From Rhizobium sp. Q54 (GTDB taxonomy: Bacteria > Pseudomonadota > Alphaproteobacteria > Reyranellales > Reyranellaceae), in the NCBI GenBank assembly GCA_945903635.1, contig CAMDOT010000028.1:1-40149 (forward strand): 40,149 nt of DNA, written 5' to 3'. Positions 18,325 to 25,209 of this stretch are shown in pieces. The position numbers and the translations under genes are program-made. The notes beneath the pieces were generated by a model that was not told where the DNA came from, searched no databases, and saw only the letters and a list, made by a program, of their open reading frames with translations. The stretch's first letter is position 1. Every line of letters begins with the position of its first letter.

Positions 18325-18696
18325 ATGCCAATCTATCTCGACATCTCCCGGATCGATCGCCTTGTTGTCATCTCCGCCCACGGCCACGTCGCGCCCGAAG
18401 AGATCGTCGCCAACCTCAAGGAAATAAAAGAAGAGAACGTGCTTCACTTCGGCAAGATCATCGACCTTACCCTCGCCCACTACGAACTTACGAAGGACCA
18501 GATCGAGAGCCTCGCGACAATGCTGCGAAGCCAGGCAGGCGACAAATCGAGAGGCCCACTCGCCTTCGTCATCGATCCGAAACGCGAAAGTTTCGCCAAT
18601 GCCTTTGCCGAAGCGACCAAGGGCGACCGGCCTGTGATGATCTTTCACACCATCCATGCCGCCCGCCAATGGCTAGGTCTTCAAAAGAAAACCTAA
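18325..18696 (+). CDS. Small STAS/SpoIIAA-like domain protein, hypothetical
   Basis: A 123-residue soluble protein. The pattern is a short beta hairpin (IYLDISRIDRLVVISAHGHV), a helix, HFGKIIDLTLAHYEL, a second helix, PLAFVIDP, then a helix and VMIFHTIHAARQWLGL. This resembles the small alpha/beta STAS- or SpoIIAA-like proteins common in alphaproteobacteria, whose C-terminus usually ends in a similar W-L-G. No enzymatic residues are evident. The ribosome binding site is weak. It lies between the CoA-transferase and the lasso-leader-like peptide gene, convergent with the latter. Function unknown. Confidence 0.7.
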   Translation: MPIYLDISRIDRLVVISAHGHVAPEEIVANLKEIKEENVLHFGKIIDLTLAHYELTKDQIESLATMLRSQAGDKSRGPLAFVIDPKRESFANAFAEATKGDRPVMIFHTIHAARQWLGLQKKT

Positions 18697-18729: not shown

Positions 18730-18939
18730 TCAACCACCGGACAAATAGTTGCCGCCGCGCCCGGTCCGCCTTTTGTTCCCGGTTTTTGCGCCGTCCTGAG
18801 TTCCCTGACTAGACACCGACATGGTCATGTCTCTCAGAGAACCCAATCTGGCCAAGACAGGTTGCTGGTAAGGTCTCTTTGCTTGCGCTTGAAGCGAGCT
18901 CGAAGCAGCGTCCGCCTCATCCGGTAATTGTTCAGTCAT
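18730..18939 (-). CDS. Putative RiPP precursor with a complete lasso-peptide leader motif
   Basis: A 69-residue peptide with GGAAGG-like bases five nucleotides before its ATG at 18939. It contains the pattern Y-x2-P-x-L-x3-G-x5-T-x used by lasso peptide leaders: Tyr24, Pro27, Leu29, Gly33 and Thr39. If cleaved two residues after that Thr, the core is 29 residues beginning SVSSQGTQDG, and Asp49 falls at core position 9, a normal acceptor for the macrolactam. Ser at core position 1 is less usual than Gly. The core ends in a basic Gly-rich tail (NKRRTGRGG). No lasso cyclase, protease or RRE gene is in the window, so maturation is unproven. It is divergent from a fucosyltransferase-like gene 85 bp away. 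Confidence 0.7.
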   Translation of the reverse strand: MTEQLPDEADAASSSLQAQAKRPYQQPVLARLGSLRDMTMSVSSQGTQDGAKTGNKRRTGRGGNYLSGG

Positions 18940-19024
18940 CGCACCTTCCCGTCATCTACGGATACCCGGACCCACGTGAGAAGGATTGCATCAAGCGCTT
19001 TGTAGGTCAAAGGATCGAGGTCGG
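18940..19024. promoter_or_regulatory. 85-bp divergent promoter region between the RiPP-like gene and the glycosyltransferase-like gene
   Basis: The two genes are transcribed away from this short gap, which must hold both promoters and both ribosome binding sites (GGGAAGG leftward, GAGG rightward). The head-to-head arrangement suggests co-regulation. No clear operator was seen. Confidence 0.4.
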
Positions 19025-20056
19025 ATGATGCCAAAGCGGGATTTGCCGAGGTTTCTGGTCCGGGGCTTTCGTGGATTCGGGCTGCGCTTCGTGAAGAGCG
19101 CCATGAAGCTCGCCATTGGCCGGAAACCACTTTTCTATCCCCAGGACCTGTTTTTCCTCGCCTATCTTCGGCACCTCCTGGCACTCTCCCGGATGTGCAT
19201 CAGCAGCAAACTGGTCGATTACTCGAGCGAAGGCGGTGGTTCGCATGCGCTCTTGACGATGACCGTCATCGATTTTGCCCGGACCCTCGGTCTCGATTAT
19301 GCCCACACCCCCTTCATTGAAATCCATCACGCCGATCGGCCAAGGGAGGCGTGGCTTGCCGCCTGGGAGGGCCTCTTCAACTTCGGGGCGGGAGAAGCCC
19401 GAGCCGCGGACACCGATCGCGATGTCTTTTCGATAACCCCGACCAACTTCGATCCAATTCGTTCACTCTTTGGTGAGCTGCGCCCCTACAATGAGCATGA
19501 CACCCATTTGATTCCGCAATTCTCGCCCGAGATCGTGAAAGAGTTTCGACGCAAGTACTATTCAAACAAGTCGCCGCGCGAGAGCGCCAAGCTCACCGTT
19601 TGCGTTCATGTGCGCCGCTTCAATGCCGGCGACGACAACATCTCGTACATCGCCTCTTTCTCCAGAATGGGCCGGACCCTGGCCGATGTTCGAGCAATCC
19701 TGACAGAACAGCGCATCGACCATGTCGTCCGGATAGTCTCCCAGGGGCACGTCTCGGAGTTTCCGGAGAGCCTCCTGGCCGGGGCCGAGCTTCTCATCGA
19801 CGCCGATCCGATCCGGAGCCTGGAGGAACTGATTGAAGCCGATGTCCTCCTCTCGAGCAGAGGCAGCTTCAGCTATGTGGCGGGAGTGCTGTGCGACGGT
19901 ATCGTGATCTGCGAGCCGTTCTATCCGCCGCAGCGCGATTGGCTGGTCTGCGAAGCCGGCGGGGCATTCGATGCCAATGCTTTCACAAGACGACTAGATC
20001 AGACCGCCACCCGCGCCGGCGGCAGCGCCAGCCCCGCCACATCGACCCTCGTGTGA
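19025..20056 (+). CDS. Putative glycosyltransferase, fucosyltransferase-like
   Basis: A protein of about 343 residues. The C-terminal half shows a GT-B-like layout reminiscent of alpha-1,2/1,6-fucosyltransferases (GT11/NodZ type): VCVHVRRFNAGDD, where those enzymes have HVRRGD, then SLEELIEADVLLSSRGSFSYVAGVL, where they have a similar Ser-rich segment before a hydrophobic stretch. The N-terminus is basic, with hydrophobic patches but no clear signal peptide. Adjacent ATGs at 19025 and 19028 are both possible; GAGG lies four or seven bases upstream. The last ~19 codons overlap the end of the convergent SMP-30-like gene by 58 bp. The assignment rests on short motifs and is tentative. Confidence 0.6.
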   Translation: MMPKRDLPRFLVRGFRGFGLRFVKSAMKLAIGRKPLFYPQDLFFLAYLRHLLALSRMCISSKLVDYSSEGGGSHALLTMTVIDFARTLGLDYAHTPFIEIHHADRPREAWLAAWEGLFNFGAGEARAADTDRDVFSITPTNFDPIRSLFGELRPYNEHDTHLIPQFSPEIVKEFRRKYYSNKSPRESAKLTVCVHVRRFNAGDDNISYIASFSRMGRTLADVRAILTEQRIDHVVRIVSQGHVSEFPESLLAGAELLIDADPIRSLEELIEADVLLSSRGSFSYVAGVLCDGIVICEPFYPPQRDWLVCEAGGAFDANAFTRRLDQTATRAGGSASPATSTLV

Positions 20057-20870: not shown

Positions 20871-23800
20871 CTAGCCTCCGCTTTTCACTTCGGAAGCTTC
20901 GGCTGCCGGCTTCACCGATCTTTTGCGCATCAGCAGGCTGAAGAACAGCGGCACGAACAGGATGGCGACGAAGGTCGCGGCGATCATGCCGCCGATCACG
21001 CCCGTGCCGATCGAATGGCGGCTGGCGGAGCCCGCGCCGGTGCTGATGGCGAGCGGCAGAACGCCCAGGATGAAGGCGAGCGAGGTCATGATAATCGGAC
21101 GGAAGCGCAGACGCGCCGCTTCCATGGCGGCATCGTAGGCAGACAGGCCCTGCTGATAGCGCTGTGAAGCGAACTCCACGATCAGAATGGCGTTCTTCGC
21201 CGCCAGGCCGATCAAGGTCACCAGGCCGATTTGGAAGTAGACGTCGTTGTCCAGGCCGCGCAGCCAGATGGCGACCAGGGCGCCCAGGACGGCGAATGGC
21301 ACCGCGGTGAGGACGGCGAGCGGCAGCGACCAGCGCTCGTACTGCGCGGCCAGGATCAGGAACACCATGACCAGGCCGAACAGGAAACCCAGCGACCCCG
21401 TGCCCGCCGTGGCCAGCTCCTGGTAGGCCGAGCCCGTCCAGCCGATGCTGAAGTCGCTGGAAAGCGTCGTGGCCACGACCTGCTGCATGGCGGCGATCGC
21501 CTGGCCCGACGAGTAGCCAGGCGCCGGGCTGCCGATGATCTTGGCCGCCGGGAAGATGTTGAAGCGATCGACCGTGTCGGGCCCCAGGATACGGGTGAAG
21601 GTCACCAGCTCATTGAGCGGCACCATGGCACCACCGTCGGCGCGCACGAAGACGTGGCGCAGATCGTCCGGCTTCTCGCGGAAGTCCGCCTCAGACGACA
21701 GGCTGACGCGATAGGTCCGCCCGAACAGCGAGAAGTCGTTGACGTAGAGACTACCGAACGAACTCTGCATCGTCTCGAAGATGGTGTTGATCGGGATGCC
21801 GAGCGCCCGCGCCTTCTGGCGATCGACGTCGGTGCGATACTGCGGCACGGCGGTAGTGAAGGTGGTCGAAACCCCGCGCAACTCGGCCCGCTGGTTGGCC
21901 GCCAGCACCACCTTCTGCGCCGCCTCCGAGAGGCCGTTCAGCGAACCGCCCGACCGGTCCTGCAGGAACATTTCGAAGCCGCCGGTGACGCTGATGCCCT
22001 GGATCGGCGGCGGATTGAAGCCGATCACCACGCCGTCTCGGAAGTTGGCGTTGATGGCGCCGATCGCCGGCGCCACGTTGCGTGCATCCTGGCTCGGCTC
22101 CTTGCGCTCCGACCAATCCTTCAGCGTGACGAAGGAGATGCCGGAATTGGACTTGAGTGCCCGCGACAGGAGATCGAAACCGGAGAAGGTGACGACGTTG
22201 GCGACCGCCGGGTTCTTCTGAAGTGCCTCGGTGGCCTTGGCCGTGACCTCGCGCGTGCGCGAGATCGCGGCCGCCGGCGGCAGCACCGTCACGACGAAGA
22301 CATAGCCCTGATCCTCGGCCGGCACGAGACTGCCGGGGATGCGCTGGAACAGGACAAACACCAGGCCCAGCACGATGACGAAGCCCGTGACGCCGATGAC
22401 CGCGCGGCGCAGCAGGAAACTGACACCACCGGTGTAACGCGCCGTTACCCACGCAAAGCCGCGGTTGAACTTCCTAAAAAACCAGGCCGGGTCGCCATGC
22501 ACGGGCTGCAGGATCAGCGCGGCAAGCGCCGGCGTCAGCGTGAGCGCCACGATGCCGGAGATCACGACCGAGACGGCGATGGTGACGGCGAACTGGCGGT
22601 AAAGCTCGCCTGCCAGGCCACCGAGGAACGACACGGGAATGAACACCGCGCAGAGGACCAGGACGATGGCGATGACCGGGCCCGTGACCTCTTGCATCGC
22701 CTGAAGCGCTGCCTCGCGCGGCGACTTGCCTTGCGTCGACATGATGCGTTCGACGTTCTCCAGCACGACGATGGCGTCGTCGACGACGATGCCGATGGCG
22801 AGAACCAGCCCGAACAGCGTCAGCAGGTTGATCGAGAAGCCCAGCACGTACATGCCGGCAAAGGTGCCGATGATCGACACCGGGATGGCGACAACCGGGA
22901 TGATCATCGCCCGGACGTTCTGCAGAAACAGGAAGACCACCAGCACGACCAGCGCGATCGCCTCGACGAAGGTGATCGCGACCTCCTCGATCGAGACCTC
23001 GACAAAGCGCGTGGTGTCGAAGGGAATGTCGTAGCGCAGGCCCACCGGGAAACGCTTGGAGATGCGCTCCATCGTCTCCCTGACCGTCGCCGCGACCTGC
23101 AGCGCGTTTGCGCCGGGCTGTAGGTAGACGGCAATGGGGACAGCCGGCGAACCGTTGAAGGTGCCGGAAAAACCATACTGAAGCGCCCCCAGCTCGACGC
23201 GGGCCACGTCCTTCAACCGCAGGGCGCCGCCGTTCTCCTCGGAGCGGATGATAATGTCCTCGAACTGGGTGCGGTCGACCAGCCGGGGTGGCGTCGTCAC
23301 CGAATAGGTGAAGACCTGCGGCTTGTTCATCGGCTCCTCGCCGAAACGACCGGCGGCGAACTGCTGGTTCTGCTCGCGCACTACGGCGGCGATGTCGGCG
23401 GGCGTGAGGTTGTACTGGGCCACCTTGTCGGGTCTGAGCCAGATTCGCATCGAATAGTCCGACGCGCCGAACAGCGAGGCATCGCCGACGCCCGGCAGGC
23501 GGCGGATTTCGTCGAGCACATTCACCAGCGCGTAGTTGCTGATGTAGATCGTGTCGTAGCGGTTGCCCGGCGACGACATGGTCAGCACCTGCAGGATCGA
23601 CGTCGACCGCTTCTGCACGACCAGGCCCTGGCGGCTCACCTCGCTCGGCAACAGCGGCAGCGCGCGCTGAACGCGGTTGTTTACGTTGATGGCGTTCTGG
23701 TCGGGATTGGTGCCGATCTCGAAGGTCACCGTGAGGTTCATCGTGCCCGAGCCGGTCGAAGTCGACTGCATGTAGATCATGCGCTCGACGCCGTTGATCT

Positions 23801-24005
23801 GCTGCTCGAGCGGTGCCGCGACGGTGGCGGCAATGTTCTCGGCAGTGGCGCCTGGGTAGGTCGCCGAGATCACGACTTCGGGCGGAACGATCTGCGGATA
23901 CTGCGAAATCGGCAAGACCCGCATCGCGACCAGCCCCGCCAGCACGATCACGATCGACAGCACCGACGCGAAGACCGGCCGGTCGATGAAGAACTTGGAA
24001 ATCAT
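20871..24005 (-). CDS. RND efflux transporter permease, hydrophobe/amphiphile (HAE1) family
   Basis: The 1,044-residue length is normal for AcrB/MexB-type pumps. It starts [18 protein letters not shown], the standard first transmembrane helix, and continues with [14 protein letters not shown] and the porter-domain TYPGA. The proton-relay aspartates are present in [16 protein letters not shown] (about residue 405), and the partner lysine in [14 protein letters not shown]. The pump would export lipophilic compounds across the envelope by proton antiport, with the adaptor encoded upstream. The frame stays open upstream to 24236, but that part overlaps the adaptor gene and lacks homology, so the ATG at 24005 is used. 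No outer-membrane channel gene is in the window. Confidence 0.95.
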
Positions 24006-24015
24006 AAGGGCGAGT

Positions 24016-25209
24016 TCACGGCTTGGCGCCGGCGGCGGGCGTGGTGGTGGCCGACGCCGGTCGAACGAAAGGCACCGGCCGGACGACATTGCCCGGCCTG
24101 ACCCGGATAACGCCATCGACCACGATCCGGTCACCCGACTGGAGGCCCTTGCGAACGATCCAGCCGTCATCCAGTTCGCGCGCGAGACGAACCTGTCTTG
24201 CACGGGCGACGTTGTCGGGCTCGATGAGATAGACAAAGGCGCCGAGCGGCCCTTGCGAGATCGCGGCCTTGGGCACCACGATGGCGTCGGGCATGGTGAT
24301 GCCCGTCATGTTCACGCGCACGAACTGGCCCGGCAACAGGCCACCCTCGTGGTTGGGGAAGACGGCGCGGACCAGGATCGTTCCGGTCCTTGGATCGACG
24401 GTGCGCGAGCGCGTATCGACCGTGCCGAGCTGCGGGTAGACCGAACCGTCGCCGAACTGCAGCTCGACCTTGACGTCGTCCGAATTGAAAAGGGTTTCGC
24501 GCGACTTGTTGATCTCCTGCAGGGCGCGCAGTTCGCTGTCCGTGAAAGTGAAATTCACGTAGGCGGGATCGAGCTGCGTGATCGTGGTCAACAGGGTCTG
24601 CTGGGCCTGCACCAGCGTGCCTTCCGGTGGCGAGACGATGCTGGTGGGACCGGTCACCGGCGCCTTGATGACGGTGTATTCGAGGTTCAGCTTGGCCGTA
24701 TCGACGTCGGCCTGGGTCGACTGGATCGTGGCACGGGCCTGGTCGCGGGCGGCGATGGCGTCCTCCAGCGATTTCTGCGCCGAGACCTTCTGGGTCACGA
24801 GTCCTTCGACGCGCTTATAATTTTCCTCGGTCTGCGTGAGCGTGGCCTTGGCCTGCGCCGCCTGCGCCTGCGCGCGCGACAACGCCGCCTCGTAGGACCT
24901 GGGATCGATTCGGAACAGCACGTCGCCCAGAGTGACGATCGCGCCTTCATTGAACTCGCGCTTGAGAAGGATTCCGCTCACCTGGGAGCGAATCTCAACG
25001 ACGCGAAATCCGGCGACCCGCCCGGCGAACTGGAGCGGCAGGGGCACATCGGCTGCCGTCAGCGTGACGATCCCGACTTCGGGCGGCAGCGGCACGACGG
25101 CAGCGGCCGGCCGCGATGCAGGCCGGGTCCACCAATAAGCCCCTGCGCCCAGGAGCGCCGCGATCACACACACCGCAACGATGCGCCCGCCCCAGGCTCG
25201 CGCCGCCAT
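24016..25209 (-). CDS. RND efflux periplasmic adaptor (membrane fusion protein)
   Basis: A 397-residue AcrA/MexA-like protein. A hydrophobic N-terminal segment (about residues 9-25, no lipobox Cys) anchors it in the inner membrane. The lipoyl-like half-motif reads [18 protein letters not shown], the Ala/Gln-rich coiled-coil hairpin spans about 105-170, and [10 protein letters not shown] returns to the lipoyl domain. A beta-barrel and membrane-proximal domain follow, with [10 protein letters not shown]. The ATG at 25209 has GGGAG nine bases upstream; an upstream TTG at 25218 is less likely. The pump gene starts 10 bp after its stop, confirming an operon. The Ala/Pro-rich tail is unstructured. 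Confidence 0.93.

Follow-up and report, generated by a model that had tools for sequence, protein, structure and literature searches.

An unclustered lasso-type precursor gene in Rhizobium sp. Q54 that is probably matured in trans

Mining for lasso peptides usually seeks precursors inside biosynthetic clusters, and the precursors of paeninodin and pseudomycoidin are clustered. A precedent for scattered precursors is found in a different chemistry, that of the prochlorosins, lanthipeptides with lanthionine rings whose many scattered precursors are served by one tolerant enzyme, ProcM. The bsf cluster of Bradymonas sediminis (PMC10368454) resembles the system described here in its precursor with a YxxPxL leader, discrete RRE (B1), B2, C, ABC transporter, HPr-kinase-like protein (K) and nucleotidyltransferase (N). 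However, the bsf precursor is encoded in the cluster and has Ile at position −2 and Asp8, while the precursor reported here lies outside the cluster and has Thr at position −2 and Asp9. An HPr-like kinase is also part of the lasso clusters of paeninodin and pseudomycoidin, the latter with a nucleotidyltransferase-like gene as well, and tail phosphorylation and hexose addition are described for this type (PMC9266682). There the modified residue is a C-terminal Ser; this phosphate acceptor is absent from our precursor, which has Gly-Gly at its end and a conserved Thr in its tail, and we do not assign it to the kinase-bearing subtype. Multi-precursor lasso clusters (PMC13381572) combine divergent cores, like leaders and one shared enzyme set, but as described they encode the precursors in the cluster, whereas here the precursors are scattered and the usual slot lacks one in some clusters. 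Finally, in lanthipeptide systems with unclustered proteases (PMC8960859) part of the maturation is encoded elsewhere, as is the case here, although the gene found outside the cluster is that of the protease rather than that of the precursor.

Lasso clusters with a kinase and a nucleotidyltransferase, as well as clusters with several precursors, were already known, and the new part appears to be the scattered precursors, probably matured in trans, of which we have seen no earlier report. None was recognised among open-licence PMC titles and abstracts, and one may exist elsewhere; the expressions “in trans”, “elsewhere in the genome” and “multiple precursor” do not occur in a 2026 review (PMC13352647).

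The precursor gene and its surroundings

The window, that is, the whole stretch of 40,149 nucleotides that was analysed, is the entire contig C28 of a 6.38-Mb assembly in 384 contigs that is 91% complete. The features around the precursor gene are as follows.

18730..18939, minus strand: lasso-type precursor gene, 69 amino acids, ATG start
18820..18939, minus strand: predicted leader, residues 1-40, with Y24, P27, L29, G33 and Thr39 at position −2
18793..18819, minus strand: predicted ring of nine residues, SVSSQGTQD, from core Ser1 to Asp9, ring closure inferred
18730..18792, minus strand: basic tail GAKTGNKRRTGRGGNYLSGG followed by the stop codon; the tail contains TGRGG and, at residue 59, a conserved Thr
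18944..18950, minus strand: ribosome-binding-like stretch GGGAAGG, read from the sequence, just upstream of the ORF
18940..19024, no strand: divergent intergenic region of 85 bp that separates the precursor from the likely start of the glycosyltransferase-like gene
18986..20056, plus strand: GT-B-like glycosyltransferase-type gene, 356 amino acids from a TTG, divergent from the precursor
18325..18696, plus strand: conserved hypothetical gene, 123 amino acids, convergent with the precursor, a synteny marker

The precursor consists of MTEQLPDEADAASSSLQAQAKRPYQQPVLARLGSLRDMTM followed by SVSSQGTQDGAKTGNKRRTGRGGNYLSGG, divided at a predicted cut after Thr(−2)-Met(−1), the exact position of which follows from the Thr(−2) rule. 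Residues 24 to 40 (Y-QQ-P-V-L-ARL-G-SLRDM-T-M) match the motif Y-x2-P-x-L-x3-G-x5-T-x throughout, in agreement with an earlier reading of this DNA made from the sequence only. That reading had also placed a ring-forming Asp at core position 9, and in the predicted core, which begins at Ser41, this residue is Asp49. The acceptor of lasso rings is Asp or Glu at core position 7-9 (PMC10368454), a range that includes Asp9. That the Ser at the start of the core is an oddity, as the sequence-only reading implied, is not supported, as serine is listed among the usual first ring residues of lasso peptides (PMC12670498). Compared with the NCBIfam lasso-leader model NF033521, a 20-position model that is an aid and not a defining feature of lasso peptides, the window precursor scored 13.2 bits, below the cut-off of 19.

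The gene is not inside a biosynthetic cluster, a location that is usual for lasso precursors without defining them. tblastn searches of the 40-kb window, for which the queries were the kinase fragment, B2, C, B1, nucleotidyltransferase and ABC transporter of the same genome and four homologues from genomes G043 and G028, gave no match to a lasso maturation gene, so the earlier statement that none is nearby stands. The divergent neighbour, which likely starts at the ATG at 19025 or 19028, resembles GT-B glycosyltransferases and has a 67% identical homologue labelled Reyranella sp.; homologues of it lie inside the lasso clusters of other species. Our guess is that this putative enzyme may glycosylate the precursor tail, perhaps at the conserved Thr. 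The 123-amino acid hypothetical gene is not thought to be part of the lasso system. The window also includes a gene for an AcrB-type RND efflux pump (20871-24236), unlinked to the precursor finding.

An orthologue 85% identical to the window precursor is found at the same place in the metagenome-assembled genome RH-20apr16-174 (L002, Alphaproteobacteria), which is apparently the same genome as G021, where contig C291 carries the same protein. The dN/dS between the two precursors is 0.13 (leader 0.10, core 0.20), and of the 30 nucleotides that differ 19 are at third codon positions; that of the glycosyltransferase-like gene is 0.20 over 304 codons. A chance ORF is ruled out by the orthologue, by the dN/dS of the precursor and by a paralogue in the same genome, described below. 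No B2, PqqD or C was detected in G021 (93% complete) despite the orthologous precursor; the precursor may be maintained in that genome in the absence of the enzymes, or the assembly may lack part of the genome. A 28-bp part of the intergenic region (18996-19023) is identical at the orthologous locus, and among the precursor loci examined it was found, with up to six mismatches, only at these two. A search for sigma-70-like promoters near the window precursor and in the intergenic region was negative, and no 8-mer was found upstream of the precursors in more than 12 genomes.

A maturation locus on another contig

Pfam-type matches in the genome of the window comprise one Transglut_core3, one PqqD and two Asn_synthase domains, the latter on contigs C67 and C70. 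The search proposed in the sequence-only reading, for an RRE, a transglutaminase-like protease and a cyclase, leads to the single lasso maturation locus of this genome, on C67, where a PqqD-type RRE (B1), B2 and an AsnB-like C are found together. The ABC transporter gene is on the strand opposite to that of the other genes.

C67, contig start: HPr-kinase-like gene, C-terminal part, cut by the contig end
C67 437-886: B2 peptidase
C67 889-2673: C, AsnB-like cyclase
C67 2765-3043: B1, PqqD-type RRE
C67 3126-3335: C67 precursor
C67 3452-4606: NTP_transf_5 nucleotidyltransferase
C67 4603-6333, opposite strand: ABC transporter

Against the lasso models of NCBIfam, the C67 B2 (80.4 bits, cut-off 33) and precursor (19.3 bits, cut-off 19) pass, while C (166.7, cut-off 525) and B1 (54.2, cut-off 80) remain below. 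The kinase fragment has no Pfam match, and by tblastn it maps to the same genes as the kinase of the G043 cluster, which reaches 33.0 bits with Hpr_kinase_C (E 5.5e-8) against a cut-off of 33.3. The window and C67 precursors are 45% identical (E = 1.2e-12); identity is 63% over the 19 leader residues up to the cut and 38% across the core.

Since leader-peptidase and leader-binding genes were found in this assembly only on C67, where they accompany a sister precursor, we consider it likely, with a probability of about 0.8, that the window ORF is a lasso-type precursor matured in trans by the single C67 enzyme set. Both the lasso-type assignment of the sequence-only reading, which now rests on the leader, Asp9, and a paralogue and many relatives within lasso clusters, and its proposal of maturation in trans are thereby retained, the latter as the best explanation. 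We infer a sequence of steps in which B1 would bind the YxxPxL leader, the cysteine peptidase B2 would cut after Thr-Met (residues 39-40), C would link the amine of Ser1 to the side chain of Asp9, and the ABC transporter would export the product.

A precursor family with scattered members

The window precursor used as a query matched 45 of 146 genomes, 44 of them from the same genus, its own included. To judge by the label of the 67% identical homologue of the neighbour gene, this genus is probably Reyranella. A profile built from 25 sequences gave 94 matches in 44 of the 65 genomes of the genus, again including its own, and the conservation in relatives that the sequence-only reading had asked about is thus found. 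Four matches without the leader pattern were dropped (G017, G003:C27, G031:C5 and G039:C115). In the 90 that were kept, the constancy of Y/F/H, P, G and Thr is a consequence of this filter, which demands them; Asp9 or Asp10 was not filtered for. In the 25 aligned members, most of them chosen with the leader pattern, the leader Y, P, Gly and Thr(−2) are invariant and Leu nearly so. Asp is at core position 9 in 81 of the 90 and at position 10 in the other 9, and core positions 1-8 of the whole set are otherwise free of acidic residues except for one Glu. The tails include TGRGG (22/90) or a basic residue and a Thr near the C-terminal end (66/90), with two of other kinds, and beyond TGRGG they vary; by a simple residue count the net charge is at least +3 in 84 of the 90 cores. 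The first core residue is Thr in 29 of the 90, Lys in 6 and Phe in 2, one of which is the C67 paralogue. As these residues are unusual at the start of lasso peptides, the cleavage site may be a different one in some members of the family.

All nine Asp10 precursors lie near B2 or PqqD (G008, G015, G029, G031, two in G043, G045, G057 and G060; e.g. L156 and L102) and have Thr as core residue 1, the numbering assuming the Thr(−2) rule. A cut two residues later would again leave Thr at −2 and would give a ring of eight residues, as against ten if the cut is not shifted.

Precursor and B2 were found together in 39 of the 65 genomes, precursor only in 5, B2 only in 1 and neither in 20 (Fisher test, p = 3.5e-11, a value that assumes the genomes to be independent, which they are not). 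In three of the precursor-only genomes (G001, G006 and G056) the precursor is at most 2.4 kb from a contig end with PqqD and C adjoining, and G006 shows a fragment of B2; the remaining two are G017, counted solely by its dropped match, and G021. Across the class, with up to 15 candidates scored per genome, the profile matched at least 5 of 385 genomes at E ≤ 0.001, three of them from the genus, the window's own included, and the match L158 from outside the genus is a precursor with Asp9 as read by eye.

The location of the 90 precursors differs: 33 are within 10 kb of B2, 15 are near PqqD and not B2, and 42 are near neither on their contig. Half of these 42 are separated from the contig ends by 10 kb or more, a filter applied against assembly artefacts, and three of these 21 were removed for an adjoining C gene (G015:C12 twice and G029:C21). 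The resulting 18 orphan precursors, the one in the window among them, belong to 11 genomes and have no maturation gene in the flanks searched by tblastn, mostly about 4 kb on each side, 1.5 kb for G036:C42:159367 and 40 kb for the window; PF13471 and PF05402 were searched genome-wide. All 11 genomes have B2 elsewhere. In G022, which is a single contig, two precursors are approximately 2.68 and 2.84 Mb from B2 and a third is at 8.5 kb.

Co-evolution of the orphan leaders with the cluster of their own genome was considered and is unsupported. In the 9 of 18 orphans whose genome has a precursor within 5 kb of B2, the leaders were barely nearer to that of their own cluster than to others (mean percentile 0.56). 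No Pfam family dominates among 117 genes neighbouring orphans (at most 5/117), which were called by a simple script, with genes of 700 amino acids or more excluded beforehand and 14 of 131, mostly small ORFs, dropped. Tandem arrays of three scattered precursors are present at L141, L135 and L140 (G035, G029 and G027), with no enzyme gene found by tblastn in the fetched flanks.

Gene order was mapped at 30 of the 40 B2 loci; the other ten (G005, G018, G028, G029, G034, G037, G040, G041, G054 and G060) were left out because the locus is split, at a contig end or covered over a short stretch only. In 24 of the 30, an intact precursor occupies or adjoins the slot flanked by C, B1 and the nucleotidyltransferase. 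The six clusters without an intact precursor in this slot probably represent about three independent events, an estimate judged from the likeness of the cores, with base-by-base inspection for the G027/G035 deletion only. In G022, G036 and G038 the gap between the B1 and nucleotidyltransferase matches is only about 50-60 bp. In G027 and G035 (L167 and L166) the linked precursor, between B1 and the nucleotidyltransferase, has an identical internal deletion that leaves a frame-broken stub of the start and the last codons, and in G003 the leader of the linked precursor no longer has its Gly and Thr. Intact precursors outside the slot, some of them near contig ends, are present in each of the six genomes: three in G022 (one of them that at 8.5 kb), four in G036, two in G038, three in G027, six in G035 and two in G003.

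Between G027 and G035 the dN/dS is 0.18 for the kinase, 0.36 for B2, 0.22 for C, 0.08 for B1 (nine changes) and 0.32 for the nucleotidyltransferase; three pairs of scattered precursors gave 0.48, 0.16 and 0.52 with few changes. The identical break points suggest that the deletion is ancestral, and if so purifying selection on the enzymes continued after the linked precursor was lost. In our reading, this combination of selected enzymes and a lost linked precursor is the strongest argument for enzymes that act on scattered precursors. The cleaner case is G027 (84% complete, about 1030 contigs), in which only the three scattered precursors were found, since G035 has a second C-B1-precursor-nucleotidyltransferase group, without B2.

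Groups of this kind without an adjoining B2 are also present at L127 (G005), L103 (G043), L108 (G015) and L019 (G028), in genomes with a single PF13471 match elsewhere, and the B2 peptidase may also work in trans on them. The only PF13471 match in G028, G037 and G005 (L047, L043 and L054) is a divergent protein of 142-161 amino acids, and no lasso gene was recognised in the 3.3 kb around it. A conserved gene that looks PhyH-like and is divergent from the kinase is found in lasso clusters at L153 (3008-3820) and many other B2 loci.

Alternative explanations and significance

The window could instead hold the decaying remnant of a second lasso cluster that lost its middle genes and whose precursor is no longer processed. 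The relative orientation of the precursor and the glycosyltransferase-like gene is that of most complete clusters that include the latter (ABC-GT-PhyH-kinase-B2-C-B1-A-NTase), with the middle missing, and G021 retains both genes while showing no B2, PqqD or C. We nevertheless regard decay as unlikely, in view of the low dN/dS of both genes between the two genomes (0.13 and 0.20) and of a leader, Asp9 and tail that are all intact. Furthermore, the fetched orphan loci, with flanks of mostly 1.5-4 kb, showed no match to the glycosyltransferase-like gene except at the orthologous locus, so that the scattered precursors in general are unlike cluster remnants.

Two other explanations have a very low probability. 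The sequence-only reading had raised a different RiPP class that reuses a YxxP leader, for instance the LPP type of Bacillota, and both a RiPP family with leaders that share the lasso RRE-binding motif and the presence of the same motif in PQQ leaders have been described (PMC13381572). This was set aside, as 33 of the 90 members have a PF13471 B2 gene at a distance of 10 kb or less, Asp is kept at core position 9 or 10 in 90/90, the paralogue and many relatives belong to lasso clusters and the single PqqD of the genome lies in the lasso locus. LPP-type clusters have a signal-peptidase-like leader peptidase, and B2 and C are present in the clusters mapped here. The variable tails after TGRGG would fit a functional full-length product of 69 residues, such as a decoy or competitor for the RRE; conservation of Asp9 and of a basic, Thr-containing tail besides the leader makes this highly improbable, since a decoy acting by its leader only would not need them.

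Maturation of the window precursor in trans by the C67 enzymes remains the preferred reading. A more extended proposal, which we put forward tentatively and hold to be possible rather than probable, is that in this genus a single enzyme set matures scattered and diversifying precursors from all over the genome, that several species dropped the precursor of the cluster itself, and that the window carries a satellite in which a POFUT1/TibC-like GT-B enzyme glycosylates the tail of a TGRGG-type peptide.

Cluster-based mining would miss many precursors of this family, as neither B2 nor PqqD is found on the same contig within 10 kb of 42 of the 90, 21 of them far from contig ends, and it would label clusters such as those of G036 and G038 as precursor-less. 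If maturation in trans is true, the genus would provide evidence from nature for a tolerance of B1, B2 and C towards many cores, and a testable case of the expansion of a RiPP repertoire.
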